Positions 15,097 to 37,416 of a stretch of 37,882 nucleotides of DNA are shown piece after piece. A program made the position numbers and the translations under genes. Below the pieces are notes generated by a model that had not been told where the DNA came from, did no database searches, and saw only the letters and a program-made list of their open reading frames with translations. Source of the DNA: Candidatus Gallacutalibacter pullistercoris (GTDB lineage Bacteria; Bacillota; Clostridia; Oscillospirales; Acutalibacteraceae). The stretch spans positions 1 through 37,882 of the forward strand of contig DVIY01000189.1 in assembly GCA_018710915.1 (NCBI GenBank), written 5' to 3'. The first letter of the stretch is position 1. Every line of letters begins with the position of its first letter.

Positions 15097-15125
15097 TGGA
15101 CATTTTGAGAACGGAAGAGTATAAT
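15097..15125 (+). promoter_or_regulatory. Promoter TGGACA-17 nt-TATAAT upstream of the large gene set
   Basis: TGGACA 15097-15102, TATAAT 15120-15125. Confidence 0.65.
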
Positions 15126-15268
15126 AAAAAAGACTATCATCAAACAAAGTGCTCAAAAGTTCCATGGATGTTTGGCTAGACTAACCGGATTGTTTGATAT
15201 AGTACAGCGGCAATATGGAATCATTTGCTTGAGGGGAATTTTATCTGGAAAATTTGGAGGGAAAAGAA

Positions 15269-18061
15269 TTGAAAAACCACAGGGTTCATTTGCGGAAACA
15301 TCGCAAACGGTGCAGATATCTGTTGGTGGGTGTCTGGGTATGTCTGATCGCGCTTTTTTTCACAATGAACAGTTTCCCGCAGGCTTCTTCGGCAAACCTG
15401 CCGGTACAGAAAGAAATGACGAATATCGTGGCAGTAGTGGATTGTTCCATCTCCATGGAAAAGTCCGACAGTAAATGGCAGGTACCCGAAGCGCTGAACC
15501 TGCTGATTGACATGTGCCCCGATGACCAGGATATCCGGTTTTCGCTGGTGGTGTACGGCACCGAGAGTTATATTGCGGTGCGCGATATGCCGCTGACGCA
15601 AAAGGGAAAAGAAACCATCCGCTCGGATATTTATGACTACATATACGGCGTGGGATATAAACGCGGCAATACCGATACCGGCGCCGCGCTGATGCAGGCC
15701 TATGACCTGCTGAAGGGCCGGGAAGAACAGAATAACCGCGTGCTGCTGTTTACAGACGGAATGATTCAGGCCCAGTATAACGGGCGCACCACGGAGATTT
15801 CACGCAGCGAAGTGGAGGATTTTGTCGCATTCGCGCAGGAAAACCACGTGGTCGTGGATGTGTTCGGCCTGTTCAACCATGTTTCCAAGGAAGAGGCCGC
15901 CACAGCGGAAAACGAGCTCAAGCGGCTGAGCATCCAGTCTTCCGGGCAGTATGAACAGATTACCGATATGTCGGTGCTGCCCGACCGGATGCAGACCATC
16001 CTTTCGCAGGCGCTGGATGTGCGCACCAACGCCCTCTCAGAAGGCAAAGCGGTGACATATAATACGGGTAAAGAAAAATATCCGGGATGGTCGTATGAAT
16101 TTGAGATTACCAGCAGCCTGCAAAAGGACGTCACCTTTGTAGCGCCCAATCCGGGCAGCGAGGTGACGGCGGTTTTGCTGCAATCGCCTTCGGGAGAGCT
16201 GTATGAAGCGCCATCTTCTATCCATACGGCTACCAGCGAAAAGACCCTGCCCGGTTCCAGCCGCGTATCATTTACCCGGTTTACAGACGAACCCGGCTAT
16301 TGCGTGGTACATATGGACCGCTCCGGGGCGTTGGAATGGGAGGGAAAGTGGAACCTGGTCCTGATTACCGATGCCAAATCCGTCCCGGTGGTCAACTCGT
16401 ACTATTTGTATGATGTGGAAATCCACGTAGAGGTCAGCACTATCAATGCCAGCGTGATGGCGCCCATCACTGTGGAGGCATATCTCACCACCAGCGACGG
16501 CCTGCGTGTGGATGACCTGGAGTTTATCCGCAGCCTGAACGCGACGGTTTCCGTCATCAACGGCACCAGCCAGAAGGCACAGGAGCTGGAAACCACAGAA
16601 GAAGCAGCGGAAGAGGGTACAGAAAAGACCGAAACGCCCGAACTGGTCAACGACAGCTTTGTATATCAGTTTACCCCACAGTTTGTCTCTTCCTATTATT
16701 TTTCCGTCACCTTGGAAAACGACACCCTGACACGCACCGCCATAACAAGCTCGGTGCAGGTGCAGGATGACCTCGTGACGGTCTGCAATGTGCGCCCATC
16801 CACTATCCATAAGCGCGAGCCGTTTACTATCAGCGGCTATCTGATTCAGCGCAGCGATGGTTCACGCGTGCCGGGCGACGGGGACTATTACAGCTATTGC
16901 GACGCCTATGCGCTGATTACGAAAACGGATGAAGAACCGCCTGTTACGCAGCAGGTTCGGCTCAAGGCGCTGGAGGACGGCAGCGGATTTTCGTCTTCCT
17001 GCCAGCTGGACGAAGCGGGTGAGTATGAAGTGGTTGTTTATACCGACAGCAGCCAGGAATCCCTGACACAGGAACAGCTGGAAGCCCGTGTAGAGGAAGG
17101 CGTCAGCACGGCTTCCTTTACGATTGAAGACCGCCCCCTGCAGCTGTTACAGGGCGGCTTTGGTAAGTTTTTCAGCATTGCCGGGCAGGCCAAGCATATC
17201 GACCTGTCACAGTATTTTTACGATCCGGATGACGACCTTTTCTTCCTGAGCTGTACCGACGGCAGCGGCGAGACACTGGATGTGGATATGAACGGCGTAC
17301 TGGAATATGTAGGCAGGCAGTCCGGGAATCAGACGCTGCGGGTAACGGCGACCAGCTATTCCAGCGGCGAAACGGTCGAAGCGGAAGTGGAGGTTATGGT
17401 ATTGGAAATCTGGCAAGTCATTTTGCTCCTGCTGGGAATTCTGCTGGCAGCCCTGGCGCTTCTGGCAGTGATTATTTTCAGCCTGTTGTATTTGTATCAG
17501 CGCGGAACTGCGCTGCGCGGGCTGGTAAAGGTAGGCGTTACCCTAAACGAGTGGTCTTCTGCACACGATGCACAGCGGCCGCAGGAACAGCCGCGGATGC
17601 GGTTGGGAGAGTTCTACATCTCCATGAAAGACCCCGACGGCATCACCGAAGAACGTCTGGATCAGCGTCCGAAGATGCTGGAGATGATTCAGGCGCGCCG
17701 CTACAGTGTCAGCCGACTGCTGCTGCGTTTCCAGCAGGCATACAGCGGAGCGGGGCTTCAGTTTGACCCCTCCAATGATCTGCTCAAGCAGCTGCTGGAA
17801 AGCGAAGATATGTGTGAAAAAATGGGACAGATGATAGGCCTGCGGGGTGGAAAAGGCTTTAAGCTGCAAAAGCCCCGCCATACTTCCGGCGTTGCAGTCG
17901 ACGGGAACAGACAAAAACAGAGTGTTTATATGGAACTGGACAGCCGTTTTACCGGCGGCTTTGTCAAAAATATTTCCCGGGACATCACCTACGAAATCAA
18001 AAACCTGTGCATCACCATTGAATATCTGCCGGAGAATGATAAAAAAGGAGGGCGCGGATGA
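15269..18061 (+). CDS. Membrane-anchored VWA-domain protein with C-terminal TM and cytosolic tail (TTG start)
   Basis: N-terminal TM (YLLVGVWVCLIALFFTMN); MIDAS MTNIVAVVDCSISMEKS; TM IWQVILLLLGILLAALALLAVIIFSLLYLY; GGAGG RBS at 15256-15260 before TTG 15269. Confidence 0.88.
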   Translation: MKNHRVHLRKHRKRCRYLLVGVWVCLIALFFTMNSFPQASSANLPVQKEMTNIVAVVDCSISMEKSDSKWQVPEALNLLIDMCPDDQDIRFSLVVYGTESYIAVRDMPLTQKGKETIRSDIYDYIYGVGYKRGNTDTGAALMQAYDLLKGREEQNNRVLLFTDGMIQAQYNGRTTEISRSEVEDFVAFAQENHVVVDVFGLFNHVSKEEAATAENELKRLSIQSSGQYEQITDMSVLPDRMQTILSQALDVRTNALSEGKAVTYNTGKEKYPGWSYEFEITSSLQKDVTFVAPNPGSEVTAVLLQSPSGELYEAPSSIHTATSEKTLPGSSRVSFTRFTDEPGYCVVHMDRSGALEWEGKWNLVLITDAKSVPVVNSYYLYDVEIHVEVSTINASVMAPITVEAYLTTSDGLRVDDLEFIRSLNATVSVINGTSQKAQELETTEEAAEEGTEKTETPELVNDSFVYQFTPQFVSSYYFSVTLENDTLTRTAITSSVQVQDDLVTVCNVRPSTIHKREPFTISGYLIQRSDGSRVPGDGDYYSYCDAYALITKTDEEPPVTQQVRLKALEDGSGFSSSCQLDEAGEYEVVVYTDSSQESLTQEQLEARVEEGVSTASFTIEDRPLQLLQGGFGKFFSIAGQAKHIDLSQYFYDPDDDLFFLSCTDGSGETLDVDMNGVLEYVGRQSGNQTLRVTATSYSSGETVEAEVEVMVLEIWQVILLLLGILLAALALLAVIIFSLLYLYQRGTALRGLVKVGVTLNEWSSAHDAQRPQEQPRMRLGEFYISMKDPDGITEERLDQRPKMLEMIQARRYSVSRLLLRFQQAYSGAGLQFDPSNDLLKQLLESEDMCEKMGQMIGLRGGKGFKLQKPRHTSGVAVDGNRQKQSVYMELDSRFTGGFVKNISRDITYEIKNLCITIEYLPENDKKGGRG

Positions 18062-20112
18062 TGGAAAGAATGCAGAAACCGAAAACCGAACAGCTCCGCT
18101 CCCCTTATACGGTGCTGTGTACGGAATGCGGAGATAAAATGGAGCAGAAGCTGTTCCGTCTTGACCCGCTGATTAAACAGTATTTCCTTACCGCCCAATC
18201 GGCCAAAATTGCTGACAACCTGTTCAAAAAACTGACGGTCAACGCATTTTACGGACAAAAGGTCTTCTTCCCCGTTCGGCCTCTGCTCAACGATGAAAAC
18301 GAAATTGCACCCAATGCGTTGGAAGATATCACCTATGAACAGCTTCCGGAGAGGTTCAGCTGCGAAAATAATGCGATCCCCACCGAAAAGCTGAGCCCGA
18401 TTTCGCTGAATATCAGCAATATCGTCGCGCAGTTCTGCCATGGCAGCGGATTTGATGTGCGCGATATGCGCGAGATGCTCTCTCTGTATCAGAAAAAAGA
18501 AGTGATGTCCGCTCTGGAAGAGGAAGAAGCTGTTCGCTATGACCAGCTGTGCGCAAAGTTTTCCAGCCTGCCGGATGTCAGCCTGGCAGCCATGAGTGTG
18601 GCGGAGAAGCGGCAGGCGGACATCGAGACCATTTTCAGCAATATTCTGGCGCTGGCCATACAGGAAATTCCACTGATACGCGAAGGCTCTGCCAATATGT
18701 CATTTAAACAGTATTCGGTGGGCTGGCGCTATCGAGTCGAAAATTCCTGCGAGATGCCGTATTCACTGGTCGCGTGCAGCGAAGACGGCGTAGACCTTGC
18801 CTGTGACCAGTGCTGCTGCCCGCACTGCCACCATATCGTTGACTACCGGTGCGGCGCATACCGGCAGCGTGTGGTGGGAATCCTCGGCACACAGTCTACC
18901 GGAAAGACTACCTATTTGACTGCTTTGACGGATATGATCGACGGCGGGTATCTTACCTCCCTTCGTTACTCCGATTTTGCAGGCAGTTTAAAAATCATGC
19001 ATGCTTTGCCCGATGATTTGCAGTGGAAGCGCTTTATGCGGGCCGGAAGAGAAGTCACGGAGCCTGCGGAGCAGAGGGAGTCACAGGATACAGCGGCAAT
19101 TTTGCTGGAATCTTCCGGCGAACCCACACAAAGCCAGCTCATCCTCCCCAATGGCAGCGCACCGGCGGGAAGAAAGACCGCTGGAAAGAAAACAACAGCC
19201 GGCAGAAAAACCGTTGAGGCCGAAGCGAGGAACGCGCAGGATAAAGTGGGCTCCCTCTGGCTGTACCAGCACGGGTACCCGCCCATCAAGACCCACGCGG
19301 TCAAGCTGGAAGCGCCGGTACTGAATTTTCTGGTTTCCAATGAGAAAATGGGTACAGAGCCGGTAATGTATACGCTGGCAGACGTACCGGGCGAAGCGTT
19401 CGACAACGAGGAAAAAGAAGGCCTGGACAAAGAATTTGTCAATACCCAGCACCGCATTTTGCGCCAGTGCGACGCACTGTTTATGGTCATCAGCCAGCGC
19501 CAGTTCGATAAGACCACGAACCTCGAATTGCAAAAGAACCCCAACCAGGTGCTGGCATCGTATCAGGATTTCCTGCCCGAGCATCCCGTGCCCACGGTCA
19601 TCGTGATGACAGGTGCGGACGAGATTTGCGGCGGAGACCTGCGCGGCGCATTACAGGTAGCGTATGATGTGCGGGAACTGCCTGCACTGGTACAAAGCGA
19701 ATTTGAAAATGACCTGGTGCTGAACACGGAGGCCATGTACAGCCTGTCAGAGGCAGTCAAACGGTATATCAACTGGAATTTCGGTAACTTTGTCAAGAAT
19801 ATTGAAGACAGCCTTTCCAAAAAATCGTCAGACAGCAAGCCCTGTGTGGCGGCGTTCTCCGTTTCCAGCGGTACGCAGTATGCGCCGCAAAACTATACCG
19901 GTACAGATCCCGAATATGATACGCCTGTCAAGATGCAGCAGCGGTACCAGAAAGTATGCAAAGCCCGCTTCGGTGTGGAAAAGCCCATGCTGTGGCTGCT
20001 GGGCGCAGACGGGATGCTGCAATCCGGACGGGCTGCCAACGAGTACAACCGCTATGATGCGTCAGTACAAAAGGCGATTCGCAAAAAGCTGCAAGAACTG
20101 TTTTACCGTTGA
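18058..20112 (+). CDS. Zinc-ribbon + TRAFAC-type GTPase (DO-GTPase-like)
   Basis: CTECGDKM and CDQCCCPHCHH ribbons; Walker A GILGTQSTGKTTYL; DVPGEAFD (G3); VIVMTGADEI (G4-like); ATG overlaps the upstream TGA. Confidence 0.8.
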   Translation: MMERMQKPKTEQLRSPYTVLCTECGDKMEQKLFRLDPLIKQYFLTAQSAKIADNLFKKLTVNAFYGQKVFFPVRPLLNDENEIAPNALEDITYEQLPERFSCENNAIPTEKLSPISLNISNIVAQFCHGSGFDVRDMREMLSLYQKKEVMSALEEEEAVRYDQLCAKFSSLPDVSLAAMSVAEKRQADIETIFSNILALAIQEIPLIREGSANMSFKQYSVGWRYRVENSCEMPYSLVACSEDGVDLACDQCCCPHCHHIVDYRCGAYRQRVVGILGTQSTGKTTYLTALTDMIDGGYLTSLRYSDFAGSLKIMHALPDDLQWKRFMRAGREVTEPAEQRESQDTAAILLESSGEPTQSQLILPNGSAPAGRKTAGKKTTAGRKTVEAEARNAQDKVGSLWLYQHGYPPIKTHAVKLEAPVLNFLVSNEKMGTEPVMYTLADVPGEAFDNEEKEGLDKEFVNTQHRILRQCDALFMVISQRQFDKTTNLELQKNPNQVLASYQDFLPEHPVPTVIVMTGADEICGGDLRGALQVAYDVRELPALVQSEFENDLVLNTEAMYSLSEAVKRYINWNFGNFVKNIEDSLSKKSSDSKPCVAAFSVSSGTQYAPQNYTGTDPEYDTPVKMQQRYQKVCKARFGVEKPMLWLLGADGMLQSGRAANEYNRYDASVQKAIRKKLQELFYR

Positions 20113-20151
20113 TGCAGGGGCGTTTTTCCAGGCAGGAAGGAGCGGAACATC

Positions 20152-23040
20152 ATGCAACAATATATTTACGGCAATATTGGACACCGTCAGTATACGTACC
20201 TTTCCACCGCGCCGGATTTCTTTTCGGACAGCCGGCGTGTGGAAGAGCTGCGCCATCTGGTGACCTATGATATATATGGGAAACATGGGGACTTACAGCC
20301 CGGCGAGCACCAGTGCTACTGGGGGCTTACCACCGATTTGAATATCCCCGGAGAGCCGGAGCGGCTGTATTTGCAGTGCTCGGGCGGCGATACCTACCGC
20401 AGTGCATTTTACGCGCAGGGGTTTATGAGCGACAGCAAAGACGGCTTTTTGTATGGGAAGGGGTTTTTGCAGCTGCTGCGGCTGCACTTTCCCGCCGGGG
20501 AAGATACCCTGAAACGGGCAGACAGCGGGTCGCTGGCAGAAGCATTCCCCCGTCCGGAGCTGGATGCTTCCCTCTCCCCCGCCGAGCTTGAGCCGGAGCT
20601 GCTGCGGAGCATCCTGCTTTTGCTGCTGCAGGGGCGCAGGGTGCTGCTGCGCATCGATGCTTCCGGCAGGGAGGCCATGCATCGTTCGCGTGAGATTCTG
20701 CTGGCGGTATACAGCCGCCTGCCGTATGGACAAAGAAGGCTAAACGGCTTTTTGACAGGCTGCACGCCTGCTCAACTGCAAAATGAAGAAAACACGCTGC
20801 CCGGCGCGGTGTCGCTGATTTTGGCGGATGCGGATACCCCGGCTTCGGAGCTGTACCTGGACGGCGCACAGCTGCTGGATATGAACGAGCCGGTAAAACC
20901 GGTGCCGCGCAGCTTTCAGGGCAAGCCTTTGCCGCATACCGCGCTGCTGGATTACCTGATGCAGAGCGATATGGAAACGCTGGATTCGTTTTTTGAGACA
21001 GCTTCTCAGAATATTGAACAGGACCGCTCCCCCACAGTGGCGGATTATTCCCTGATGCTCGAATTGTTTAAACAAGTTTCGCGCCCCATTACCGATGAGG
21101 TGCTGGCAGAATGGGCCATTCAGCTGCAAAGCGGGTCGCTGCAGGGCGATTTGCGGCAGATGCTGCTGGATAACGTCTGCCAGCGTGTCACAGAAGAGCA
21201 GATGGAGGAATACCTGCTGCATTCCCCGGCAGTGCAGTCTTTTTCACAGCTGGCACAGCTGGGCAATATCCCCCAGGAGCAGCGGACCGCCGCACTGTCA
21301 CAGTTCCGCAAAAGCGGCGAGGTGCAGGACCCCAATGCGGGGTTCAGCATGCTGATGTTTGATAGGATATTCCAGGCGCGCGGAGAAGCCGGGGCGGAAG
21401 AACAGCTTCGGCTGGTACAGGCAGGCGGATACCACTTCTTTAAGCTGCTGTTGACGGACTGCCCGGAACAGCAATCGCTGCGCTCGGGACAGTATACGAA
21501 AAAAGCCATTCGCGGGCTTGAAAAAATGGAGCTGCCGCAGGCGTTGGGGCAGACAACTGCTGACCGTATCCGGCAGGATGTGGCACAGCGGCGCGAAAAA
21601 TGCGTACAGGAGATGCGCGCGCGCCACGCAGAGGAGCTTACCCGGCAGAGAAATGCAGGCCTGAAAGCCATCGACCACGCCTTGCGGCTGTTCATAGAAA
21701 ACGGATATTGGGAAGGGCTGTGCAAAAAGCTGGAAGAGCTGTTTGCGCAGCTGCGCGAGAACTATCTGGCAGAGGAGCTGCTGCACGAAGAGGGTGACGG
21801 CAGCTGGCCTGTCGTCATTCGGGATAGTTTGGTGGTCATCTTTACCCGGGCAATTATTTCCACACAAAGCCAGTGCCTTGCAGCCGAAGAAGCCGTACAG
21901 CAGGTATCGGAGCTGCTCGGACAGCTGGGCTGCCCGCTTTCACAGCAGGATTTGGAAGACCTGGACGCCTGGCTGAAAAACTGCCGCACATATGCGGAGC
22001 TGTTCACGCCTTGCCGGACGCTGCGCGATTTTGTACATCGGATTCAGCAGCTGGATGTCCTCGAACTGCCGAAAGAGCTGGCGCGCAATGTATATGCCAG
22101 CAGCCTTTCTGTGATTTGCGAACGCACCTTTGTACCGCAGGAGCTTTTTGCAGAAAAGGAATCCCTTCGGTTTTTATCAAAGCGGCCGGATGGAGGGAAC
22201 TTCGTACAGAAAATCCTGCGGCATTGCCCCGGCCTGGGGACGATTCCGGAGGAAGCGCCGCAAAAGGCAAGGGAATATGTGTGCCAGGTGGATTCACTCA
22301 TGGAAGCAGCCGGGCTGGACAGCCATTCGATTTACCTGCACTTCCGCCCGCTTACAGAGAAATATACCGTGTATGAAATCTCCACATTTATGGACTGGGC
22401 AGAGCGCTTCCCGCAGGAAGAACGCTGCCCGATCCCCCTTTCTGACGGCGCGCTGCTGTGGCTGGCAAGATGGTATACGCACAACCTCAAGCTGATGGCA
22501 TTTGTATCCAAACGGCTGTCTGAAAAAAACCAGGCGGAATTTGTGCGTTTGCTGGCTGCCAACGTCAGCGCACAAAAGCACGTAGTGCAGGAATTTATCC
22601 GTGCGCTGTATATGAATGGTTTTTCAGATAAAGTGCTGCTGCAGGGGGCCGGAGAAAATACCCGTGAGACATGGAAGGCCGCCGTAAAAGAGTGCCTGGC
22701 TCCGGTCGAGCCGCTGGAGTTCCAGTGGAATCAAACACCGGAAACCAAGCTGCCGGCTTATGTATGGTGGAAAAAGAAAAGCCAGCTTCTGGCAGCTGTC
22801 AGCGCAGGGCTGCTGCTGCTGGCGGGGCTGATTATCCCACTGGTACTGCTGATTTTCGGCAATGGCTCGGTCATCCTGGCGGCAGCGGCGCTGGGCGTAA
22901 CTTTGCTGGGTGCGGCAGCTGCTTTTGCGGCCGGCCTGTGGGCAGATGAAAAAATACGGCGTTGGGTGCTGGCACAGGGCCTGGCTCTGGTTCCGGGACT
23001 GCTGCTTGACATCATTGCGTTGGTCTTGAGCCTGCTCTGA
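20152..23040 (+). CDS. GAP1-like (GTPase-associated protein 1) large protein with C-terminal TMs
   Basis: N-terminal QQYIYGNIGHRQYTYLSTAPDFFSDSRRVEELRHLVTYDIYG resembles GAP1-N; adjacent to GTPase; C-terminal hydrophobic helices LLAAVSAGLLLLAGLIIPLVLLIFG. Confidence 0.65.
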   Translation: MQQYIYGNIGHRQYTYLSTAPDFFSDSRRVEELRHLVTYDIYGKHGDLQPGEHQCYWGLTTDLNIPGEPERLYLQCSGGDTYRSAFYAQGFMSDSKDGFLYGKGFLQLLRLHFPAGEDTLKRADSGSLAEAFPRPELDASLSPAELEPELLRSILLLLLQGRRVLLRIDASGREAMHRSREILLAVYSRLPYGQRRLNGFLTGCTPAQLQNEENTLPGAVSLILADADTPASELYLDGAQLLDMNEPVKPVPRSFQGKPLPHTALLDYLMQSDMETLDSFFETASQNIEQDRSPTVADYSLMLELFKQVSRPITDEVLAEWAIQLQSGSLQGDLRQMLLDNVCQRVTEEQMEEYLLHSPAVQSFSQLAQLGNIPQEQRTAALSQFRKSGEVQDPNAGFSMLMFDRIFQARGEAGAEEQLRLVQAGGYHFFKLLLTDCPEQQSLRSGQYTKKAIRGLEKMELPQALGQTTADRIRQDVAQRREKCVQEMRARHAEELTRQRNAGLKAIDHALRLFIENGYWEGLCKKLEELFAQLRENYLAEELLHEEGDGSWPVVIRDSLVVIFTRAIISTQSQCLAAEEAVQQVSELLGQLGCPLSQQDLEDLDAWLKNCRTYAELFTPCRTLRDFVHRIQQLDVLELPKELARNVYASSLSVICERTFVPQELFAEKESLRFLSKRPDGGNFVQKILRHCPGLGTIPEEAPQKAREYVCQVDSLMEAAGLDSHSIYLHFRPLTEKYTVYEISTFMDWAERFPQEERCPIPLSDGALLWLARWYTHNLKLMAFVSKRLSEKNQAEFVRLLAANVSAQKHVVQEFIRALYMNGFSDKVLLQGAGENTRETWKAAVKECLAPVEPLEFQWNQTPETKLPAYVWWKKKSQLLAAVSAGLLLLAGLIIPLVLLIFGNGSVILAAAALGVTLLGAAAAFAAGLWADEKIRRWVLAQGLALVPGLLLDIIALVLSLL

Positions 23041-23052
23041 GGAGGAAAAGAC

Positions 23053-27211: not shown

Positions 27212-27261
27212 TGCCCCCGGGAGGGAAGAATTTTTGGGATTTCAGAAGGAGATGAAACCTG

Positions 27262-30200
27262 ATGCAAATCAGAGATCTTTTTACAGATAACCTGGTTGCC
27301 AGTACCAGACTGTCCCCCACCTTGGTGCCGGGTCTGGATACTTCGGAAAGCAAGGGCCCCATTACGGCAGCCGACGGGATTGGGCCAGCTCAGATTGCAG
27401 AAAATTTCTATCTGACAACAGAGAGTGATTCGGCCAACTCTGCCTATGCACGCCCCTCTATGCTGGCGCATGTTTCCAGCTTTGCCAGCGGCGTGCGCAC
27501 CATTGCTGAAAAATGGAATGCCGGTAAGCTGACTGGTGCGGATATGGATTCCTCCGCTTACCGTGATTTTATTGAATGGCAGGGTCTGGTCGCCATCGTG
27601 GCGCTGCATGATATCTATTCCTATAAAGGGCTGGATATCTCGGTGAAGAGCATACAGCTGAACAGCAAAGACAAGCTGCATGAGTGCATCCTGCTCTCGA
27701 TGAGCAAGGATATGGACTATAAAACCACCATTACGGTTGATGAATCGGGCATACCGCAGGGAAAACTGTTTTATGTCTGCCAGAAGGACGAACCGTTTGC
27801 CATTTTTCATCCGGTAATCGGCATCTGCCCGCTGCAAACCTACTCCAAAACCCTGTTTGACGGTGTGGTGGACTGGTTCAGCAGCCAGCAGGGTACGGTG
27901 AAAACCTGCCATGAAGCCTGGCTTCCGGTATGCAGCGGAGAGGGCCGCCTGGACGATTTCTTCCTGGCGCGCATTGCCTGGTGGGCAGAAAAGAACCGCA
28001 TGAAAGACCTGCATGAGCTTATGCAGAAAGGGATGCGCGATCCCCAAAAATACAACCCTGATTTGTATAAACGTCTGGAGGCCAGCACCCAGTGGCCGGC
28101 GGTTTCCAATATCGATGAGATTTGGCAGGATCGCGGCGCTGAATTCAGTACCGCAGTACAGGCATGGCAGAACGCCGGCTCACTTTCCAGCCTGTTTACA
28201 GACACGCTGTTTCTGGCATATGTACAGGAAAAATCGGACAGCCGTTTGACCTATAATACGCCTGACGGCGCGAAACAGCTGGATTTCAGCAATGCCGGTA
28301 CGCTGCCGGAGCTGGCCCATTTTGTTCCGGTGCTTCCCTTTACCCAGTCCGGCGCAAAGCTGCTGGAAAAGGGATGCATGCTGAAAGAAGTCAGGATTAC
28401 AGCCGTTGCAGTGCCTGGCGGCCTTTCTGGGGTGCGCGTAGAGGTGAGCATCCAGACGCCGGAAGATGAAGTCCTGCCGCTGAACCGTTTTTACAGTGCA
28501 GAAGCGCTTATCCAGGGCCCCCTGCCGTATATGATGGTGTGGCCGTGGGTATCCCTGCCTGCCAAGATGTGGAAAAAATACTATGCTACCTGGCAGAAGG
28601 GCAGCGGAGATGTCTATGACGTGCTGCAGGACGGCAGCGGCAGCGACCTGCCGCGTATGGCAGAGGTTTCGCTGGAGATGGATGGCGGTGAGCATCACCG
28701 GATCCGCCGGGCAGCCTCAAAGGATGCATGGGATGTCTATTACCGCACCGATCCGTTCCGCTATGCGGTGATGAAAAACAGCGAGGGTGCCGAGCTGGGA
28801 ACTATATTTGTCCCGCAGTGCGCGCCGCTGCAGGGAGAGCCTCTCAGCGGTACAGCTATCCCGCTTTCGGTGGACTTTGGTACGACCAGTACCGTGTGCG
28901 GCCTGAAGCTTTCAGACGGGAAAAATGTGGTTCTGCCCTATCGCGATTACAGCCGCACCATTACGGTGGAAGACCCCGACACCCGCAGGAACGTATCGCA
29001 TCATCACTGGCTGGGCACCGACCCCGGTGTGGAGCATGCGCGCAAGATTTTTAGTGTGGCGCAGCTGTTTGAGCGCGCAGATGGAAGTGCAGCCCCCAAC
29101 CTGGCGGTCATGAATGGAATCGGCAACCAGACTTACTATGTAGACGGCCGCCTGTTCCTGGTTTCCGGCGCTTTGCTGAATGTGTATGCAGGCGCACATC
29201 CCGGTGTGCTGGACCCGTTCAGCACACAGAAGATTATGAACGATATGAAGTTCACCAATAAGCTCGACCTGAAGAATGCAGCTGCCGCCGCTATCTTTTT
29301 GGCGGGTGTATACCAGTATGCGCTGCTGTATCTGCTCAGCGCCAACTACCGCCCTTCTGCGGGGAGTGAGTTTATCAAGCTGCGCGTGTCATACCCCAAT
29401 GATGTGACGCTGAACGCCTTGAAGAACACCTGGAGCAATGTGAAAGAAATTCTGGCGGGTACAGTAGACCCGGTTCTGCTGCAGCCGCTGGAAAATATTC
29501 ATTATTATACCGAGGCCCGTGCTACTACACAGTATCAGCTGCGCCCCGGCGGAGGCTATGATACGCTTTCCAACCTGATTTCGCTGGATATCGGCGGAGG
29601 TACCACTGATATTTCCATCACCAACCGTACATATCCGGGCGAAGTGCGTTCGCTCTCCGTGCGGTATGCCGGTAAGGAAATCATGATTGACAGTATTATC
29701 GAGACCTTCCGGCAGTATTCTCCGCACGCAACCTTTGAGCGTGTGAAAACCTTCCGCGATTTGTGGCAGGCGTCTGAGAAGGAATCCTCTTTGATGATTA
29801 CGGATTTCGATGAAATCTGCAAGGAATTCCAAAAGAGTTCCAGTGATGATGCGGGCCGGTATGACCTGGTCGACAGCAACTCCCTGCGTATGATTGTGGA
29901 AATGCTGCTGGCCGGCGGGATGGATCTGGGCGATCCGCACCAGCCCAACGGCACCAACTTCCTGCGCCGCCTGATTATGGCGAAATTCCTGATGCTGATG
30001 CGTCTGGTAGCCGAAACGATTCGCAATAACCTGGATATGTGGTGTATTGCCGGCCATAAAGGGCCGCTGCAGCTCAACGGAAACACGCTGTCGCTGCATC
30101 TTTCTGTGACAGGTACCGGCGCCCAGCTGCTGCAATATGTGTTCAACTGCTCCCTGGGCGATCTGGACAGCAGGGACGCCAACGCACTGCGTTACGCCCT

Positions 30201-30918
30201 TCCCCACTCCAGCGCGTGCATCGATATTTTGAACGAGCTGTTCAAGAATGTCATTGGCCCTGAAAATCTGGGCGAAAATGTCAGTGTCAATATCACCTTC
30301 CATGTCAACCATGATGTAGCCGAAAAGCTGGAGGTCTGCTATGGTATGCTGCAGCCCGGAATTGAAACGGCAGCAGCCCCCGCAGCTGCGACAGCCAAAG
30401 CAGCCGCACCGGCCAGCCCGGCAGCTCCTGCCATGGGTGCATTTTCGATTGCCACAATGATTCAGCAGGAAACCGCCAAACAGCAGCAGCCTGCACTCAC
30501 CACAACCGAACAGGAGCAGGTGGAACGTCAGAAACACAGCGACGAAGTCAAGCAGATGTTCAACCAGTATCGATTCTCGCCCAAGATGGATGAAGTGGTG
30601 GAGTATATCAAAGCGCTGTCGGTGTATATCAATGTATGGGACCGTGTGATCTTTGGCGATTCATCCGAGCTGGTAGGCACCCACTACGGCCTGGAAAAAC
30701 CGGATATGACGCTGATCTGCAAGGTGTACGACCTTCTTTCTGACCATGTGGAAGAGCTGATTCCTGCCAGCTGCCTGCGGGCAAGCGAGCGCCGCGCAGC
30801 CTATATGGCAGAGGCAGAACAGGAAGAATACCGTGACCTGCTGATTAAAACCTATGTGACCGATGACCTGTTCAACCAGAAGATGGCCAGATATCAGGCA
30901 GACCGGTCGATTCACTGA
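27262..30918 (+). CDS. Giant actin/Hsp70-superfamily ATPase
   Basis: SVDFGTTSTVCGLKLS (phosphate 1) and ISLDIGGGTTDISITNR (phosphate 2); ~530-aa N-terminal extension; Ala/Pro linker. Confidence 0.85.
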   Translation: MQIRDLFTDNLVASTRLSPTLVPGLDTSESKGPITAADGIGPAQIAENFYLTTESDSANSAYARPSMLAHVSSFASGVRTIAEKWNAGKLTGADMDSSAYRDFIEWQGLVAIVALHDIYSYKGLDISVKSIQLNSKDKLHECILLSMSKDMDYKTTITVDESGIPQGKLFYVCQKDEPFAIFHPVIGICPLQTYSKTLFDGVVDWFSSQQGTVKTCHEAWLPVCSGEGRLDDFFLARIAWWAEKNRMKDLHELMQKGMRDPQKYNPDLYKRLEASTQWPAVSNIDEIWQDRGAEFSTAVQAWQNAGSLSSLFTDTLFLAYVQEKSDSRLTYNTPDGAKQLDFSNAGTLPELAHFVPVLPFTQSGAKLLEKGCMLKEVRITAVAVPGGLSGVRVEVSIQTPEDEVLPLNRFYSAEALIQGPLPYMMVWPWVSLPAKMWKKYYATWQKGSGDVYDVLQDGSGSDLPRMAEVSLEMDGGEHHRIRRAASKDAWDVYYRTDPFRYAVMKNSEGAELGTIFVPQCAPLQGEPLSGTAIPLSVDFGTTSTVCGLKLSDGKNVVLPYRDYSRTITVEDPDTRRNVSHHHWLGTDPGVEHARKIFSVAQLFERADGSAAPNLAVMNGIGNQTYYVDGRLFLVSGALLNVYAGAHPGVLDPFSTQKIMNDMKFTNKLDLKNAAAAAIFLAGVYQYALLYLLSANYRPSAGSEFIKLRVSYPNDVTLNALKNTWSNVKEILAGTVDPVLLQPLENIHYYTEARATTQYQLRPGGGYDTLSNLISLDIGGGTTDISITNRTYPGEVRSLSVRYAGKEIMIDSIIETFRQYSPHATFERVKTFRDLWQASEKESSLMITDFDEICKEFQKSSSDDAGRYDLVDSNSLRMIVEMLLAGGMDLGDPHQPNGTNFLRRLIMAKFLMLMRLVAETIRNNLDMWCIAGHKGPLQLNGNTLSLHLSVTGTGAQLLQYVFNCSLGDLDSRDANALRYALPHSSACIDILNELFKNVIGPENLGENVSVNITFHVNHDVAEKLEVCYGMLQPGIETAAAPAAATAKAAAPASPAAPAMGAFSIATMIQQETAKQQQPALTTTEQEQVERQKHSDEVKQMFNQYRFSPKMDEVVEYIKALSVYINVWDRVIFGDSSELVGTHYGLEKPDMTLICKVYDLLSDHVEELIPASCLRASERRAAYMAEAEQEEYRDLLIKTYVTDDLFNQKMARYQADRSIH

Positions 30919-31017
30919 TGATTTCAGAAAATCATGATGAAAAAGTTCTGGGCGCAGCCGCGGCTGCGCCGCAGAGCCCGATGCAGCGGTAGCTGCGCGA
31001 TAAAGGAGGATCAGACC

Positions 31018-31971
31018 ATGAATCGTTGTGTTGTCTGGGCAACAAAAAAAATTGCGGTATGCCTGAGTGTCATGCTGCTGCTGGCAGCTGGCGGATGGAG
31101 CCTGCCGGTTATGGCCAAAACCAGCACAGAAGAGCAAACGCCGATGGTGCAGAAGCTTTCGGCCGAAACCGAAGGCCAGGCGGAGGCTTTGGAAAAAGAG
31201 ATTGCGCAGCTGAACGCGGATCTTTCCACAGCCAAAACCGCACTGGTTTTGGGCATTATAGGGGCATCCCTGGCTGTTCTGGCCATAGCAGGCGCGAGCG
31301 TTGCTATTTTTATGGGGATGAAGCGCCCCACAGAAAAAGAGCTGTTTGACCCCGAAAAGTTTGCAACCAGGGACGACCTGAACGCCCTGTCTCAAAATGT
31401 GGCGCAGCAGATTGACCGGGTGAAGAACGAAGAAATGCGAAATGCCCGTATAAAGGCAGAAAAGCAGACCACTCCCCCGGAAGAAAAGAGAAAATTCGTT
31501 ATACCCGACTTGCCCGAAACAGAACCCGTGAAAAAAACGGCCTGGGCAGCTTCCCCTGTTGCTGTTGAGCCGAAAGTACAGCCGGATGTTGCGGTAAAGG
31601 CTGAAGAGCCCGAAATCAAAGCGGATGCTGTGGTGGTTGGAAAGCTGAAAGCAAATTTTGAGCCGCAGATTCGCGACCGCATCTGGCTGACAGAAGGGCG
31701 CGGCTATCTGCTCTATGAAGATAATACGCTGGAGCCGGAGCAGGGCCGCGGTTCCAATACGCTCGAAAATTTCGCGCAAAACGGCCTTTTGCGTTTATTT
31801 GATGCACAGGTAAATGGGCAGACCTATACCTACCAGCAGATTATCAACGGCGAGTATCCCCGCAACCAGTACTATCAGCCTGGCGATGTGCTGAAAAAAG
31901 CAGTTGTCAAGCAGGAGAGCGGCGGAGAATACAGCCTGGTGCACCCGGGACGGATTGAAATGCGGCCGTAA
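31018..31971 (+). CDS. Membrane protein with signal peptide, coiled coil and uncharacterised C-terminal domain
   Basis: Signal-like N-terminus IAVCLSVMLLLAAGGWSLPVMA; TM ALVLGIIGASLAVLAIAGASVAIF; RBS AAAGGAGG. Confidence 0.75.
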   Translation: MNRCVVWATKKIAVCLSVMLLLAAGGWSLPVMAKTSTEEQTPMVQKLSAETEGQAEALEKEIAQLNADLSTAKTALVLGIIGASLAVLAIAGASVAIFMGMKRPTEKELFDPEKFATRDDLNALSQNVAQQIDRVKNEEMRNARIKAEKQTTPPEEKRKFVIPDLPETEPVKKTAWAASPVAVEPKVQPDVAVKAEEPEIKADAVVVGKLKANFEPQIRDRIWLTEGRGYLLYEDNTLEPEQGRGSNTLENFAQNGLLRLFDAQVNGQTYTYQQIINGEYPRNQYYQPGDVLKKAVVKQESGGEYSLVHPGRIEMRP

Positions 31972-31984
31972 ATTTACAGAAAGG

Positions 31985-32028
31985 AATCCCCCCTTGGGCT
32001 TTACAGTCTGAAAAAAGGGGGGATTTTC
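31985..32028 (+). terminator. Intra-cluster terminator / attenuator
   Basis: AATCCCCCCTT ... AAGGGGGGATT perfect 11-bp stem followed by TTC. Confidence 0.7.
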
Positions 32029-32048
32029 ATATACAGGGAGGAATGACT

Positions 32049-32771
32049 ATGCCAGCAGTCAATCAAAACCGACAGTTTCAGATTATCAATGTGACAGAAC
32101 CGCATCTTCCGTGCGTGCTGATTCTCGATGTTTCCGCTTCCATGGATGGAGACCCCATCGCGTTTGTAAACCGCGCGTTGACGCGGGCTGTTGAAGTGAT
32201 TGCAGATGACTCCATTGCAAGCAGGCGGGTAGAAATATGTTTGATTACCTTTGGCAGCTCGGTAAAGGTAGAAGTACCGTTTCAGACCAGCAGCCAGTAT
32301 TCACCAAAAAAGCTGTTTGCCGGCGGGCTGAGCAGCCTGAACACAGCGCTGATTATGGCAATGGATGAAATTGAAAAGCGGATGGAAGCATACAGCAGCC
32401 TGGATGTAGCCAGCTGTACCCCGTGGATTTTCCTGCTGTCTGATGGGTATCCGAGCGATATGGAGCGCTTTGAAGAGGCCAGCGGCAGGCTTCATCAGAA
32501 AATCCGCGATAAAAAGCTGAATTTTTTCCCCATGGCAGTGGGTGGAGCAGATGTGGATTTTCTGCGCCGGTATTTTCCAGAGCAGGAAGAAGGCGCCGTG
32601 CTGAGCGGCACAATGGAGGAACTGGAAGACGTATTAGCATGGTTTGCCGGGCAGGTGTCGGAATCTTCCCACAGCGGCGTGCGCAAAAACGCAGAAATTC
32701 CGCTGTATGTACGGCGCGCACAGCGCCAGGAGGGGAAAACGGCGCAGCGGATGATTACCATCAACCTGTAG
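32049..32771 (+). CDS. TerY-like cytosolic VWA protein
   Basis: LPCVLILDVSASMDGDPIAFVNRALTRAVEVI (DxSxS), CTPWIFLLSDGYPSD; GGAGG RBS. Confidence 0.9.
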   Translation: MPAVNQNRQFQIINVTEPHLPCVLILDVSASMDGDPIAFVNRALTRAVEVIADDSIASRRVEICLITFGSSVKVEVPFQTSSQYSPKKLFAGGLSSLNTALIMAMDEIEKRMEAYSSLDVASCTPWIFLLSDGYPSDMERFEEASGRLHQKIRDKKLNFFPMAVGGADVDFLRRYFPEQEEGAVLSGTMEELEDVLAWFAGQVSESSHSGVRKNAEIPLYVRRAQRQEGKTAQRMITINL

Positions 32772-32787
32772 AGAGGGGGAAAAACAG

Positions 32788-33663
32788 ATGCATTCCTGTG
32801 AAAAGGTGTTTGACAGGATTGGCAAGGAATACAGGATTGGGCAGCGGGTGCACTGTCGTCCGGACGGCGGGGAGTTGTTTTCCGTACAGGAAAATCCGCA
32901 GCAGCTTGTGCTGCAAACAGCATGCAGTATTCCCGAACAGAACCGCCTTTCGTGCGATTCTTCCAGCCTGATGCAGGTACAGGTTCCGGTGTATGACCAG
33001 GACGGGCAGGCTTTCGGTTTTCTGATGCGGCTGAAACGCGAGCTGCCGAACCCGGTTTCACTGGAAGCGCGTTTGACGCAGCTGGGAGAGGAGGTTTCCA
33101 GCTCGGTTCCTGTGCGCAAACTGCTTGCGGTACAGATGTGCCGTATTTTTTCGCTGGTACATCAGGAGGGCTTTGTGTTTGGGTTTGCAGAGCCGGGCGA
33201 TTTTCTGGTATCAGGGCGCAACCGGCTGGTGTGTGCCAGCACTGACCGCTGCCTGACAAATCCCGTGGAATGGGAGAGCATGTGGTATTATTGTGCGCCC
33301 GAGGTGCTGGCTGCGGACGCAAACTGTGAATATGATTTTGCAGGCGACTGCTATACGCTGGGAATTTTGCTGTTTCAGATTCTTACCGGCAGTTATCCGT
33401 TTGGCAGAGGTCTTTTGCCAAAGGAGGAACGGATTCTGGAGGAGATTCTGGACGGGAAAAGCGTGTTTTTTTATTCTGACCGCCCCGAAAACCAATCGAT
33501 TCTTGCGCGGCTGCGGGAATACGATGCAGACGGGGAAATGGTTTCACAGACGCTGCTGAGCCTGTTTCAGAGGACATTCGACTATTCGGGAAGCAGCTCG
33601 TATCAGGAGGGACGCCCTTCACTGGCGGAATGGGCCCGCTTTATGCAGGCGGCCAAATGGTAA
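32788..33663 (+). CDS. Kinase-like protein lacking catalytic residues (pseudokinase)
   Basis: HQEGFVFGFAEPGDFLVSG (catalytic loop without HRD/GD Asp), YYCAPEVL (APE), YDFAGDCYTLGILLFQILTGSYPF (subdomain IX). Confidence 0.75.
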   Translation: MHSCEKVFDRIGKEYRIGQRVHCRPDGGELFSVQENPQQLVLQTACSIPEQNRLSCDSSSLMQVQVPVYDQDGQAFGFLMRLKRELPNPVSLEARLTQLGEEVSSSVPVRKLLAVQMCRIFSLVHQEGFVFGFAEPGDFLVSGRNRLVCASTDRCLTNPVEWESMWYYCAPEVLAADANCEYDFAGDCYTLGILLFQILTGSYPFGRGLLPKEERILEEILDGKSVFFYSDRPENQSILARLREYDADGEMVSQTLLSLFQRTFDYSGSSSYQEGRPSLAEWARFMQAAKW

Positions 33664-33675
33664 GGAGGGAATCAT

Positions 33676-36111
33676 ATGGGGGTATCTAAAGAGCTGGTGC
33701 AGGAATCTTCCAAAGACCGGGGGTTCCAGCTTTTGTGCCGTATTTTTTCCATTTTATCTGTGCGGCAGAGCTGGAAAAACCAGTTCGCAGAAAGGGCGGT
33801 ACAGCTGAAGGGGTTTTCTACCCGCAAAAATGGCTCTACCGAAGAAAAGGCACAGGACAGCATTACCTGTGTCAATGATATTATGGACGAATGGCTGCGG
33901 TTTTCATTTCCATGCGTCCGGCAGAAAAAAGAAGTGTTTGAAAAAACACAGGAAGCGTTTTTGGAGAAGCTGCAAAGCGTAAAAATAGAAAGCAACGCCA
34001 TTCAGGAATATCAAAATGATTTGCAGGGGATTGTCGATAACTATACTTCCGACCCGCGTTATGTTACCTGGAGCGGGGATGCGTATAATCGGTGGAAGCG
34101 CAATTTCAACAGTACGCTCGGCGAAAGCCGCACCGGTTTTTCATTAAAAATGCTGGCAGGCATTTCGCTGACAGTCAGCGTGCTGGCAGGCGAAGACACC
34201 ACCTGCGGCCTGTATGCGGGCCCGCAGCAGGTATGCGAGCTGCTGTCTTTATGCATGAAAGAATTTGGGTACCGGTATACAGAGTTCCTGATGCCGTTAA
34301 AGGCAGAAAAAGCCTGTACGGACGATCAGAAAGAGCTGCTGTTGTATGCGATGTTTTTTCTGCTGAATTCATATTATGCCAATGGCGTCCAAAAGCAGCA
34401 GAATGCATGGGAGCGCGGCAAAGCATTTCTGGAAGCCCTGATTCTGGAGCGGCAGAATGGCCAGACCGAACCGGGCTCAATCTATCAGGTGCTCCAAAGG
34501 ATAGAGGAATTTAATGGCTGCTTTGAAAGGTACGAAACATCCCTGATTACATATGCGCAAACCTTTGAAGTCGGCGCGCACAGCTGCGAAGTAGAGAGCT
34601 GCTATGTGCCCCCGGTGCTGGAATATCTGGGTACCAATTCGAATGGCTTGGAAAAGCTGTTTGACGCAGAATTGCTCTCGGAGAAAAAAGGCCTTTTTCT
34701 GATTGATGACAGCGGTGATGAAACATCGCGCCAGCAAAAAGCGGTGCTGCTTTCGTGCCTGCACAGCAATGAGGCATTCTGCGCCTCCTTTCCGAACATG
34801 GCAGAATTTGCCGCCGGGCTGGGGCTTGAAAACAGCCGCCTGTATCCGGTTGTGGCCGACTGCCGCCATCTCGTTGGCATCCAGGGGATTACCCTGGAAA
34901 TACTGCTGGAAGAAGCGCTGGGGAATTCCTTCCAGTTTACAGGCAGCTACCGGGGGGAAGAAGCCTATATCTGCCAAATGAAAGAATTTTTAGAGCATGC
35001 GGCCGCACAGGGAAAGCTGCTTTTGTTCCTTGACCACTTTACGCGGAATGATTTTTCCATACTCAGTGAGCTGCTGTGGAACCTGAAACAGGAACATCGC
35101 GGCTGGAAGGTGCTTTTGTATATCACTTCACAAAAACCAGCGCCGTCACAGCTGCGAACGCTGCAAAGAGACCTGGCAATCTGGCAGATGTCAAAGCCGG
35201 AATCATACGAAGAAAAGCTGATTGAGCGATTGCGCAGATTTCTGGCAGTCGGGGTCGGCGGGGAGCTGCGGTTTGAAAAGCGGCTTCAACAGCGAAGCGG
35301 GCGCTTTGAAAGCCTGTGTACCAATACACCCGAAAGCCTGATCCGGTATTTTATCGATCCGCACCAGACAGATGCGTATTCGCTTTTGATAGAAGATATG
35401 GAAGCCCAGCTGGAGATTGACTGTTCGCGCGAACCGGGCAACCGGGACGGGGCAGTCACGCGCGATGAGTGCCGAAGCCTGCTGCGGAAAATTGCCGTGC
35501 ATGTGGTGGAGCACCGTTTTACAGATGCAGCAGGGCGTTTTACAGATGTTTTTTCGGAATCGACTTTGCGCCGCAGCGGGATTCTGCTGGATGATATACA
35601 CCGGAGGGCGTGGGAAATTATCTGCCGGCGTATGCTGCTGATTTCCCCGCAAAATATCAATGCATTTTCTTTTCAGCATCCGCTGTTCTGTTACCATCTG
35701 GCAGCCGAAGAATACTTCGAGCTGTTCCGGTATGACCAGAGCCGGTTTTTCCATCGGCTTGGCCATATCAGCGCAGAAGATTTTTCGTATCTGCTGGTAA
35801 TTCTGGTGCGTTTTCTGAGCCGGGCATACCGGCCGGAATATGTGGAAGAAAAAAATGCATTGACTCCCGCAGATATCCTGGTTTTTGCACAGTTTGTATC
35901 GGGATATGTCTTCAGCCATCTGAGTGAAACCCGGTTTCAGGATGCCCAGTGTTATGCAGAGGGGCTTTCTGATGTGATTCATGAAACGCTGGGCAAAAAC
36001 CTCTTCAGTTCTGATAACCCCATGATACAGATGGGCAGGTATGCGCTGTATGTGGCGTGTGAATATGCGAGCCGGTATTATTCCTACTATGCGTCTGAAA
36101 GTGGTGTATAA
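33676..36111 (+). CDS. Large protein with degenerate STAND/NACHT-like NTPase core
   Basis: GLFLIDDSGDETSRQQKAVLLSCL in Walker-A position, KLLLFLDHFTRNDFSILSELLWNL Walker-B-like, then helical region; no GK[ST]. Confidence 0.5.
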   Translation: MGVSKELVQESSKDRGFQLLCRIFSILSVRQSWKNQFAERAVQLKGFSTRKNGSTEEKAQDSITCVNDIMDEWLRFSFPCVRQKKEVFEKTQEAFLEKLQSVKIESNAIQEYQNDLQGIVDNYTSDPRYVTWSGDAYNRWKRNFNSTLGESRTGFSLKMLAGISLTVSVLAGEDTTCGLYAGPQQVCELLSLCMKEFGYRYTEFLMPLKAEKACTDDQKELLLYAMFFLLNSYYANGVQKQQNAWERGKAFLEALILERQNGQTEPGSIYQVLQRIEEFNGCFERYETSLITYAQTFEVGAHSCEVESCYVPPVLEYLGTNSNGLEKLFDAELLSEKKGLFLIDDSGDETSRQQKAVLLSCLHSNEAFCASFPNMAEFAAGLGLENSRLYPVVADCRHLVGIQGITLEILLEEALGNSFQFTGSYRGEEAYICQMKEFLEHAAAQGKLLLFLDHFTRNDFSILSELLWNLKQEHRGWKVLLYITSQKPAPSQLRTLQRDLAIWQMSKPESYEEKLIERLRRFLAVGVGGELRFEKRLQQRSGRFESLCTNTPESLIRYFIDPHQTDAYSLLIEDMEAQLEIDCSREPGNRDGAVTRDECRSLLRKIAVHVVEHRFTDAAGRFTDVFSESTLRRSGILLDDIHRRAWEIICRRMLLISPQNINAFSFQHPLFCYHLAAEEYFELFRYDQSRFFHRLGHISAEDFSYLLVILVRFLSRAYRPEYVEEKNALTPADILVFAQFVSGYVFSHLSETRFQDAQCYAEGLSDVIHETLGKNLFSSDNPMIQMGRYALYVACEYASRYYSYYASESGV

Positions 36112-36242
36112 ACAGTTTGTTTGCCATTTTTTATTGAAATTCCGTATTTCCTTTGTATTTGCCAGGGTTTATGATAGAGGCATAAAAACGAGAGGAATTC
36201 AGGTCCTGTAAAAGTACAGGAAAATAAAAAGGAGGAATTTCA

Positions 36243-37373
36243 ATGACATGTATGGGTATCAGCGGAAAAACCTATCAGCTGGGAGAAAAAATCCAGGATG
36301 GCGGCGAAGGGACCGTATATCATATTCAGAAGGACCAGAATCTGGTGGCGAAAATCTATCACAATACGACCTCGCCCGACAAAATGCAGCGTCTCGAAAA
36401 GAAGCTGCGGGTGATGGTAAAGGATACATCCTTTGAGGCCTGGCAGGACGGCGCCATGCGTTTTGCCTGGCCGCAGGATGTCCTGTATGAAAACGGCAAA
36501 TTCTGTGGGTTTGTCATGCCGTTTGCAAAAGATACTTTTGCGTTTCACGAAATCTTGTGGGACAGCGGCCGCGACAAATTCAAGCATTATGATTACAACC
36601 GGTCAATCGCCATTGCCTATAACCTGACACAGGCGGTGGATTATGTGCACACGCATGGCTATGTAATCGGCGATATGAATATCAAAAACTTCCGGTTCAG
36701 CCGTGACTGCCGTGTGATTGTACTGGATGTGGATTCGTTTGACATCACCGACCCCGCTACCGGCGAGCATTATAAATGCAGCGTAGGGCACCCCGAAATG
36801 CTGGCGCCCGAATTGCAGGGCATGCGGCTGGATACCGAGCGGGCCAAGTTTACCAAAGAAACGGATTATTTCTCGCTGGCAATCCTGATTTTCCGAATCC
36901 TGATGAACGGCGCGCACCCGTTTAACGCGCCCAAAATCGAAAGCGCCGATGATTACGATTCCTCTTCCAGCGACAACGGCACCATGACCGATATCGCCAA
37001 AGGCAAGTGCCCGTATGTGAGTGTGGACACGGGACGCAAAATCCCCATTTATGCGCCCGATTTTGCCATGCTTCCGGCATCGCTGCAAACGCTTTTCTGC
37101 CGTACCTTCCGCTATACCGAAGCGACGGCGCGAAAAGCTGCCGCTGGCCGCGCAAGCACGATGGAGTTTGCCGTGGCATTGTACCGCTTTTACCAGCGCG
37201 ACAAAGTGACCTGCAGCGCAGACCCAAGGCACAAGTACCTTTCCCGTGTGGGCAAGTGCCCGTTCTGCGAAGTGAAGGCAAAACAGAACTCCGTTGCACA
37301 GGCGTCTATCAGCCGCGCTGCGGCGCCGCATCGTTCATCCCTGTTTGACCAGCTCAAATTTAAATTTCTGTAA
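36243..37373 (+). CDS. TerY-associated type Ser/Thr protein kinase with C-terminal zinc finger
   Basis: LGEKIQDGGEGTVYHI, VAKIY, HGYVIGDMNIKNFRFS, VLDVDSFDI, APEL, and CSADPRHKYLSRVGKCPFCEVK. Confidence 0.9.
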   Translation: MTCMGISGKTYQLGEKIQDGGEGTVYHIQKDQNLVAKIYHNTTSPDKMQRLEKKLRVMVKDTSFEAWQDGAMRFAWPQDVLYENGKFCGFVMPFAKDTFAFHEILWDSGRDKFKHYDYNRSIAIAYNLTQAVDYVHTHGYVIGDMNIKNFRFSRDCRVIVLDVDSFDITDPATGEHYKCSVGHPEMLAPELQGMRLDTERAKFTKETDYFSLAILIFRILMNGAHPFNAPKIESADDYDSSSSDNGTMTDIAKGKCPYVSVDTGRKIPIYAPDFAMLPASLQTLFCRTFRYTEATARKAAAGRASTMEFAVALYRFYQRDKVTCSADPRHKYLSRVGKCPFCEVKAKQNSVAQASISRAAAPHRSSLFDQLKFKFL

Positions 37374-37380
37374 AGCCATG

Positions 37381-37416
37381 CCGGCTGTGGGAGTTTTCCC
37401 ACAGCCGGTCAGTTTT
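37381..37416 (+). terminator. Strong intrinsic terminator closing the gene set
   Basis: CCGGCTGTGGGA-GTTT-TCCCACAGCCGG perfect 12-bp stem, then TCAGTTTTTA. Confidence 0.9.

Follow-up and report, generated by a model that had tools for sequence, protein, structure and literature searches.

A clostridial gene run joining a DO-GTPase/GAP1 pair to divergent tubulin-like and actin/Hsp70-like proteins: a candidate envelope machine

Introduction

Two described groups of bacterial systems come closest to the locus analyzed here. FtsZl1 (Pfam Tubulin_2) operons encode VWA, GTPase, kinase and OmpA proteins, and membrane remodelling was inferred for them (Makarova & Koonin 2010, PMC2875224). For the GAP1-N2 'GTPase-centric' systems, which have a kinase and a stand-alone VWA protein as a described partner set, conflict functions were predicted (Kaur et al. 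2020, PMC7159879). FtsZl1 has been known since 2010 and GAP1-N2 since 2020, and no functional test was found in the open-access literature searched. The locus is a run of 12 open reading frames (ORF1-12) on contig DVIY01000189.1 of Candidatus Gallacutalibacter pullistercoris, a Clostridia-type metagenome-assembled genome (MAG; assembly 2.35 Mb, 269 contigs); the entire contig, 37,882 bp, was analyzed and is called the window. We read the operon, with confidence evenly divided for and against, as a GAP1-N2 'GTPase-centric' variant built on an FtsZl1-type tubulin and acting as an envelope sensor-switch-polymer machine.

Results

Protein families of the operon

The features are listed with window coordinates, strand, assignment and basis (TM, transmembrane).

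15097..15125, +, putative sigma-70 promoter TGGACA-17-TATAAT (11/12 consensus match)
15254..18061, +, ORF1, membrane protein with extracytoplasmic VWA (Pfam VWA, HHalign)
18058..20112, +, ORF2, DO-GTPase2 (Pfam, motifs, HHalign)
20152..23040, +, ORF3, divergent GAP1 (N2-type) with C-terminal TM segments (HHalign and position)
23053..24810, +, ORF4, putative VWA-like lipoprotein (lipobox, DNTESM and VSDL motifs)
24858..25337, +, ORF5, small multi-TM membrane protein (relatives at the equivalent place in L036 and L037)
25367..27211, +, ORF6, short FtsZl1 (Tubulin_2)-type member of the tubulin/FtsZ superfamily (HHalign, AlphaFold, Foldseek)
27262..30918, +, ORF7, 1218-aa actin/Hsp70-fold ATPase (motifs, family profile, Foldseek)
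30934..31971, +, ORF8, TM and coiled-coil protein (profile homologues, equivalent place in L036 and L037)
32043..32771, +, ORF9, stand-alone TerY-like VWA protein (Pfam VWA)
32788..33663, +, ORF10, pseudokinase (Pfam Pkinase below cut-off, HHalign to ORF12)
33676..36111, +, ORF11, 811-aa orphan (no Pfam or PADLOC match)
36243..37373, +, ORF12, protein kinase with C-terminal zinc ribbon (Pfam Pkinase)
37380..37409, +, intrinsic terminator (13-pair stem and T run)

ORF1 matched Pfam VWA directly (3.6e-12; residues 57-235), and the domain is followed by a long beta-rich ectodomain, a single late TM segment and a cytoplasmic tail. Its HHalign match to the VWA-TM protein found in classical GAP1-N2 operons reached 98.5%, and its homologue in Anaerofilum sp. 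An201 (L038) was 36% identical. ORF2 was assigned to DO-GTPase2 by a direct Pfam match (5.9e-12) and aligned with classical DO-GTPases (HHalign 97.1%); its Zn-knuckles, CTEC (21) and CDQC/CPHC (249-257), all lie N-terminal of the P-loop GTQSTGKT (277), and the Glu of Walker B (DVPGE, 442) is present. ORF3 alone gave no single-sequence Pfam match, and is therefore called a divergent GAP1-N2 member. When ORF3 was combined with its L038 homologue and that of a Lachnospiraceae MAG (L037), the profile aligned with GAP1-N2 proteins of three same-phylum genomes (HHalign 91.4%, E 9e-7; unrelated families from the same operons, used as controls, <=0.2%), and the gene lies immediately 3' of that for the DO-GTPase, the position by which GAP1 is defined.

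ORF4 carries the lipobox VLSGC and the motifs DNTESM and VSDL. In its family D71/S75/M76/G78 and D194 were conserved across 61 rows, and a lipobox-like motif was present in 45 of 62 members. The DxTxSM...SDL pair resembles a VWA metal site, and a VWA-like lipoprotein is a plausible assignment from these motifs; the lipobox and conserved motifs agree with the original prediction, whereas HHalign support for VWA homology was weak. ORF6 and ORF7 alone fell below Pfam cut-offs. ORF6 aligned with Tubulin_2 proteins (HHalign 97.8%, E 1e-12) and has the signature GSLFGGTGAS (GGTG at 199). The best Foldseek matches of its AlphaFold model (pLDDT 82, pTM 0.89) were FtsZ/tubulins at a probability of about 1.0, with TM-scores of just 0.2-0.4, because of which the protein is placed as a divergent member of the tubulin superfamily. 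The model of this 614-aa protein has separate helices and loops, with no long coiled coil C-terminal of the FtsZ-like domain. ORF7 holds both actin/Hsp70 (ASKHA) nucleotide motifs (phosphate-1 DFGTTST, phosphate-2 DIGGGTTDIS) in a layout of a ~500-aa N-terminal region, an ATPase fold and a helical tail. Its family profile matched MreB (5e-8) and Hsp70 nucleotide-binding domains, and Foldseek matched its model (pLDDT 69.8, pTM 0.67; terminal parts of low confidence) to the Hsp70 nucleotide-binding domain, MreB and BeeR (E about 1e-7, probability 1.00). The zinc-ribbon GTPase with its GAP1-like partner and the tubulin-like and actin/Hsp70-like proteins named in the original prediction have all survived these independent tests, and its extracytoplasmic VWA protein was borne out too. 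The wider idea of a membrane-spanning, switch-controlled, cytoskeleton-like machine is upheld at the level of families and folds.

In the 3' part, ORF9 (Pfam VWA, 5.7e-9) and ORF12 (Pfam Pkinase, 2.2e-8; motifs GDMNIKN and DVD, zinc ribbon CPFC) were direct matches, as had been proposed. So, too, had a pseudokinase: ORF10 reached Pfam Pkinase at 3.8e-6, under the cut-off, its catalytic motifs were unrecognisable, and it aligned with ORF12 (HHalign 91.4%). ORF11 had 0 homologues among 200 family genomes and no Pfam or PADLOC match, and its earlier description as a degenerate STAND-like protein found no support in the profile search. Across the window PADLOC returned no match beyond generic kinase models, and Pfam found no PP2C gene among its ORFs. 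An ORF12 paralogue (35% identical) lies on another contig of the same genome (G000:C92, L141; 6324-9891, - strand); this kinase gene adjoins genes for a PP2C-like phosphatase and for a transglutaminase-like protein (named from translations), beside nusA-infB. The C92 locus may be the site of the PP2C partner that is absent from the window.

Conservation of the ORF1-8 block

Judged by gene order, conservation does not extend to all 12 genes as a single unit; ORF1-8 form a conserved block, which recurred in two other Clostridia genomes, and ORF9-12 did not. The block was found in the same order in L038, where the ORF4 slot is occupied (by position), and in L037, where ORF1 is reduced to its C-terminal 231 aa. 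The L037 gene (L037:1990-2685) keeps the cytoplasmic C-terminal part and has neither the ectodomain nor the VWA, for which reason sensing and tail may be separable in ORF1. ORF9-12 are absent 3' of ORF8 in L037, and the L038 contig stops at ORF8. The closest tubulin (50% identity over the matched segment) was in L036, which has ORF4-8 alone; ORF5 and ORF8 relatives stand at equivalent places in L036 and L037. In the tubulin tree the window, L036, L037 and L038 formed one clade (support 100/100).

Relatives of the ORF6 tubulin, some of them weak, were found in 4/200 genomes of the family (own included), 7/345 of the order and 2/399 of the phylum sample. A single-sequence genome scan with ORF7 gave no match, and no relative was found in viral contigs. 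A genome-wide pattern scan of the GTDB set gave 466 tubulin relatives, the best 80 of which were read; the pattern was built from a second tubulin alignment, as the first, of four rows, was too divergent.

A wider core, ORF4-8

Gene order was counted at 75 tubulin loci. An actin/Hsp70-like gene lay immediately 3' of the tubulin gene at 68 of the 69 loci having a downstream gene, a small gene immediately 5' at 67/75, and a gene of 380-730 aa at position -2 at 55/75. Hosts of this core include Bacillota, Bacteroidota, Cyanobacteriota, Poribacteria, Acidobacteriota, Nitrospirota, Ignavibacteriota and Cloacimonadota, and it also occurs on cyanobacterial plasmids, where nearly all members are annotated as 'hypothetical' in the deposited records. 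The partner varies by lineage: DO-GTPase/GAP1, Hsp70 or ZorAB-like motors. Bacteroidota locus L109 likewise combines a DO-GTPase/GAP1 pair with the core (GAP1-M 0.004, GAP1-N2 0.017, below cut-off). On the best tubulin tree, in which L014 is a long branch, no fewer than 3 changes were needed for the ZorAB-like link and 2 for the GTPase link; drivers were thus swapped more than once or repeatedly lost.

Several further features of these loci were recorded. Hsp70 (1.5e-83 in L048) lay directly or one gene 3' of the actin-like gene in L048, L070, L073, L087 and L094, which are Bacteroidota and Ignavibacteria. The cyanobacterial cores L083, L084 and L108 have three or four paralogous coiled-coil genes 3' of the actin-like gene. 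A transglutaminase-like family, secreted or lipoprotein and with conserved Cys-His motifs, was seen in L036 (15275-16165), L066 (19054-20016) and six more Poribacteria, 3' of the tubulin/actin core or of the core with ZorAB. Loci L054/L056 and L072/L085 are (near-)identical under differing phylum names (Cloacimonadota, Bacilli, Caldisericia), because of which MAG mis-binning is probable there.

Linkage to Zorya

In L014, from a genome of the same family (G024), genes for ZorA (PADLOC 9e-27), ZorB (4e-78) and an EH_signature protein (Pfam 1.7e-5) are codirectional with, and immediately 5' of, a core ordered as lipoprotein-size, small TM, tubulin, actin and TM genes. The best solved match of this ZorB was 8qyd, a ZorAB defence system entry (3.9e-17). 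A gene for a PD-T4-6-like kinase (L014:1227-3263, 1.3e-20) lies divergent from the locus. ZorA- and/or ZorB-like genes were present in about 19 further loci (e.g. L066, L041); 3' of the core, Poribacteria, Acidobacteriota, Nitrospirota, Cloacimonadota and Phascolarctobacterium encode a MotA/ExbB protein with a long coiled coil together with an OmpA/MotB protein. One ZorA from such core-following loci had ZorA structures alone as solved relatives. The likeness of the Poribacteria ZorB to MotB was at least as great; 'ZorAB-like' is the safe term outside G024. The window has neither ZorA nor ZorB, and a ZorB elsewhere in its own genome was rejected, as no OmpA-domain match was found there.

Transcription signals

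The layout first proposed, 12 same-strand ORFs between a promoter and a terminator, was confirmed: all lie closely spaced on the + strand, spanning 15254-37373. The ORF1 start (TTG at 15254) was set by a mechanical rule, and alternative in-frame starts are possible. TGGACA-17-TATAAT was the top promoter-like site of its region (11/12; all others 9/12). The closing terminator is strong; its stem, earlier given as a perfect 12 bp, was counted as 13 pairs, and is followed by CAGTTTTT (minimum free energy -28.9 kcal/mol, z = -5.35, 0/200 shuffles as good). On the + strand from 26001 to 37882 no internal terminator-like site approached its strength.

Discussion

Proposed mechanism and alternatives

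From the families and gene order observed, we infer sensing, switching, co-assembly and outcome as follows. The ORF1 VWA ectodomain and the VWA-like lipoprotein would sense an envelope change or ligand, the cytoplasmic tail of ORF1 relaying the signal to the DO-GTPase/GAP1 pair. This pair could serve as a threshold switch, with the TM segments of GAP1 keeping it at the membrane. Its action would license the tubulin-like and actin/Hsp70-like proteins to assemble together in a nucleotide-dependent manner, with ORF5 and ORF8 as anchors, and the assembly may reinforce, seal or isolate a membrane site, or shut the cell down. In other lineages a ZorAB-like ion-driven motor would replace the GTPase as driver of the core. 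ORF9-12 would be a separately acquired TerY-VWA/kinase layer, tuning the machine by phosphorylation, and phage infection or comparable envelope injury is the likeliest trigger. A defence or conflict role is favored by the Zorya linkage and by the patchy distribution (4/200 family genomes; cyanobacterial plasmids).

Several points weigh against this reading of the operon. The anchor systems are themselves predictions, Zorya excepted, and clear true Zorya was found in L014 alone, where the tubulin has diverged strongly and order and size were the chief grounds for assigning the lipoprotein, small TM and coiled-coil genes. No nuclease or toxin was seen in the window operon; no window protein matched FNIII in Pfam, though the ORF1 ectodomain is beta-rich. 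Among 118 flanking proteins sampled there were few strong defence matches (reverse transcriptase, Gabija GajB, MzaA), because of which the core is not obviously part of a defence-island set; the sample had no matched control and for that reason is not used as evidence for defence. The remaining points, transglutaminase-like genes 3' of the core in L036 and Poribacteria and GH3 and CAP-associated genes adjoining it in G769, together with flanks that are not rich in defence genes, favor an envelope or membrane remodelling machine of the kind inferred for FtsZl1 operons that encode VWA, GTPase, kinase and OmpA proteins (PMC2875224). Its polymers would shape or vesiculate membrane or help to build a surface structure, and the OmpA/MotB-like motors and transglutaminase-like proteins of relatives would act on the wall. 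We regard this as possible but somewhat doubtful: a core so patchy, and carried on plasmids, is unlike a core shape system, and Zorya ABC adjoins it in L014.

The run could also be two unrelated tandem operons, ORF1-8 and the TerY-VWA/kinase genes ORF9-12, that are merely neighbors, an arrangement compatible with the other readings. It is a realistic though lesser prospect, which would explain a 71-bp gap 5' of ORF9, the absence of ORF9-12 3' of ORF8 in L037, and genome G015, where the relatives of ORF9 and ORF12 sit together, the ORF9 relative adjoining the kinase gene, without tubulin genes. No strong terminator and no + strand promoter-like site lies between ORF8 and ORF9, however, and a kinase with a stand-alone VWA is already a described GAP1-N2 partner set (PMC7159879). 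A role for cytomotive filaments (TubZ/ParM-like) in segregating DNA or plasmids, suggested by the tubulin and actin folds and by plasmid-borne relatives, is very improbable and was rejected: no ParR/TubR-like gene was seen, the Gloeothece plasmid bearing the core has its own ParA/ParB, and the operon's VWA partners are membrane or secreted proteins. Its neighbors on the contig are moreover housekeeping genes, positions 1-15,000 holding transporters, three tRNAs, Rnf-type subunits, MATE proteins and a nucleoside hydrolase, all ordinary genes (Rnf and MATE labels from reading translations).

A broader claim extends the sensor-switch-polymer reading: the tubulin and actin/Hsp70 proteins would form an obligate two-cytoskeleton assembly, present in many phyla and triggered from the envelope by interchangeable DO-GTPase/GAP1 or ZorAB-type drivers. 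We think this rather unlikely; if true, it would define a class of immune or damage-response systems that is new and related to Zorya, with a polymer in place of a nuclease as effector. A polymer acting as an immune effector would parallel the filament-forming immune assemblies of animals. With the near-constant tubulin and actin/Hsp70 gene pair, the machine can be defined in compact and testable terms, and the linkage to Zorya points to ZorAB as a concrete partner.

Comparison with known systems

As in the FtsZl1 operons, the window has a divergent tubulin of the same family, a VWA protein, a distinct GTPase and serine/threonine kinases; spread over bacteria is patchy, and OmpA proteins occur in many relatives. 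That paper took its OmpA proteins as outer-membrane ones, and its main text mentions no actin/Hsp70 or MotA/ZorA partner (PMC2875224). Unlike most, not all, FtsZl1 proteins described there, ORF6 has no extended coiled coil after the FtsZ-like domain. With the GAP1-N2 systems (PMC7159879) the window shares a zinc-knuckle DO-GTPase with the Walker-B Glu, a GAP1 immediately 3' of it with C-terminal TM segments, an extracellular VWA-TM protein, a tubulin, and a zinc-ribbon kinase with a stand-alone VWA. It departs from classical members in its strongly diverged GAP1 and tubulin, in having no GrpE or PP2C protein found in the window and no FNIII match in Pfam, in an ORF7 that is no standard Hsp70, and in that a single operon unites its tubulin gene with actin/Hsp70-fold and kinase/VWA genes; that paper reports the tubulin, Hsp70 and kinase themes as non-overlapping, which is a pattern and no strict criterion.

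ORF9 and ORF12 are like the stand-alone VWA and kinase of TerY-VWA/kinase modules; unlike in the TerY-P triad, PP2C is missing from the locus, the PP2C-kinase pair being on another contig. Relatives resemble Zorya in having, beside the core, a MotA/ExbB protein with a long coiled-coil tail and a MotB/OmpA protein, with a ZorC-like EH_signature protein also in L014. No ZorD, ZorE, ZorF or ZorG effector was found, and none of types I-III, as described in PMC11890865, contains the tubulin/actin core. No described tubulin/actin/ZorAB module was found in the open-access literature searched. Not all of the gene set is new: FtsZl1 operons and GAP1-N2 systems between them account for most of the part types. 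The five-gene core, the tubulin-actin pairing and the ZorAB link go beyond what the original prediction had proposed. Relative to the open-access literature searched, what is new is the actin/Hsp70 fold of the tubulin's constant neighbor, the ZorAB-like motor, and the overlap of themes in one operon.

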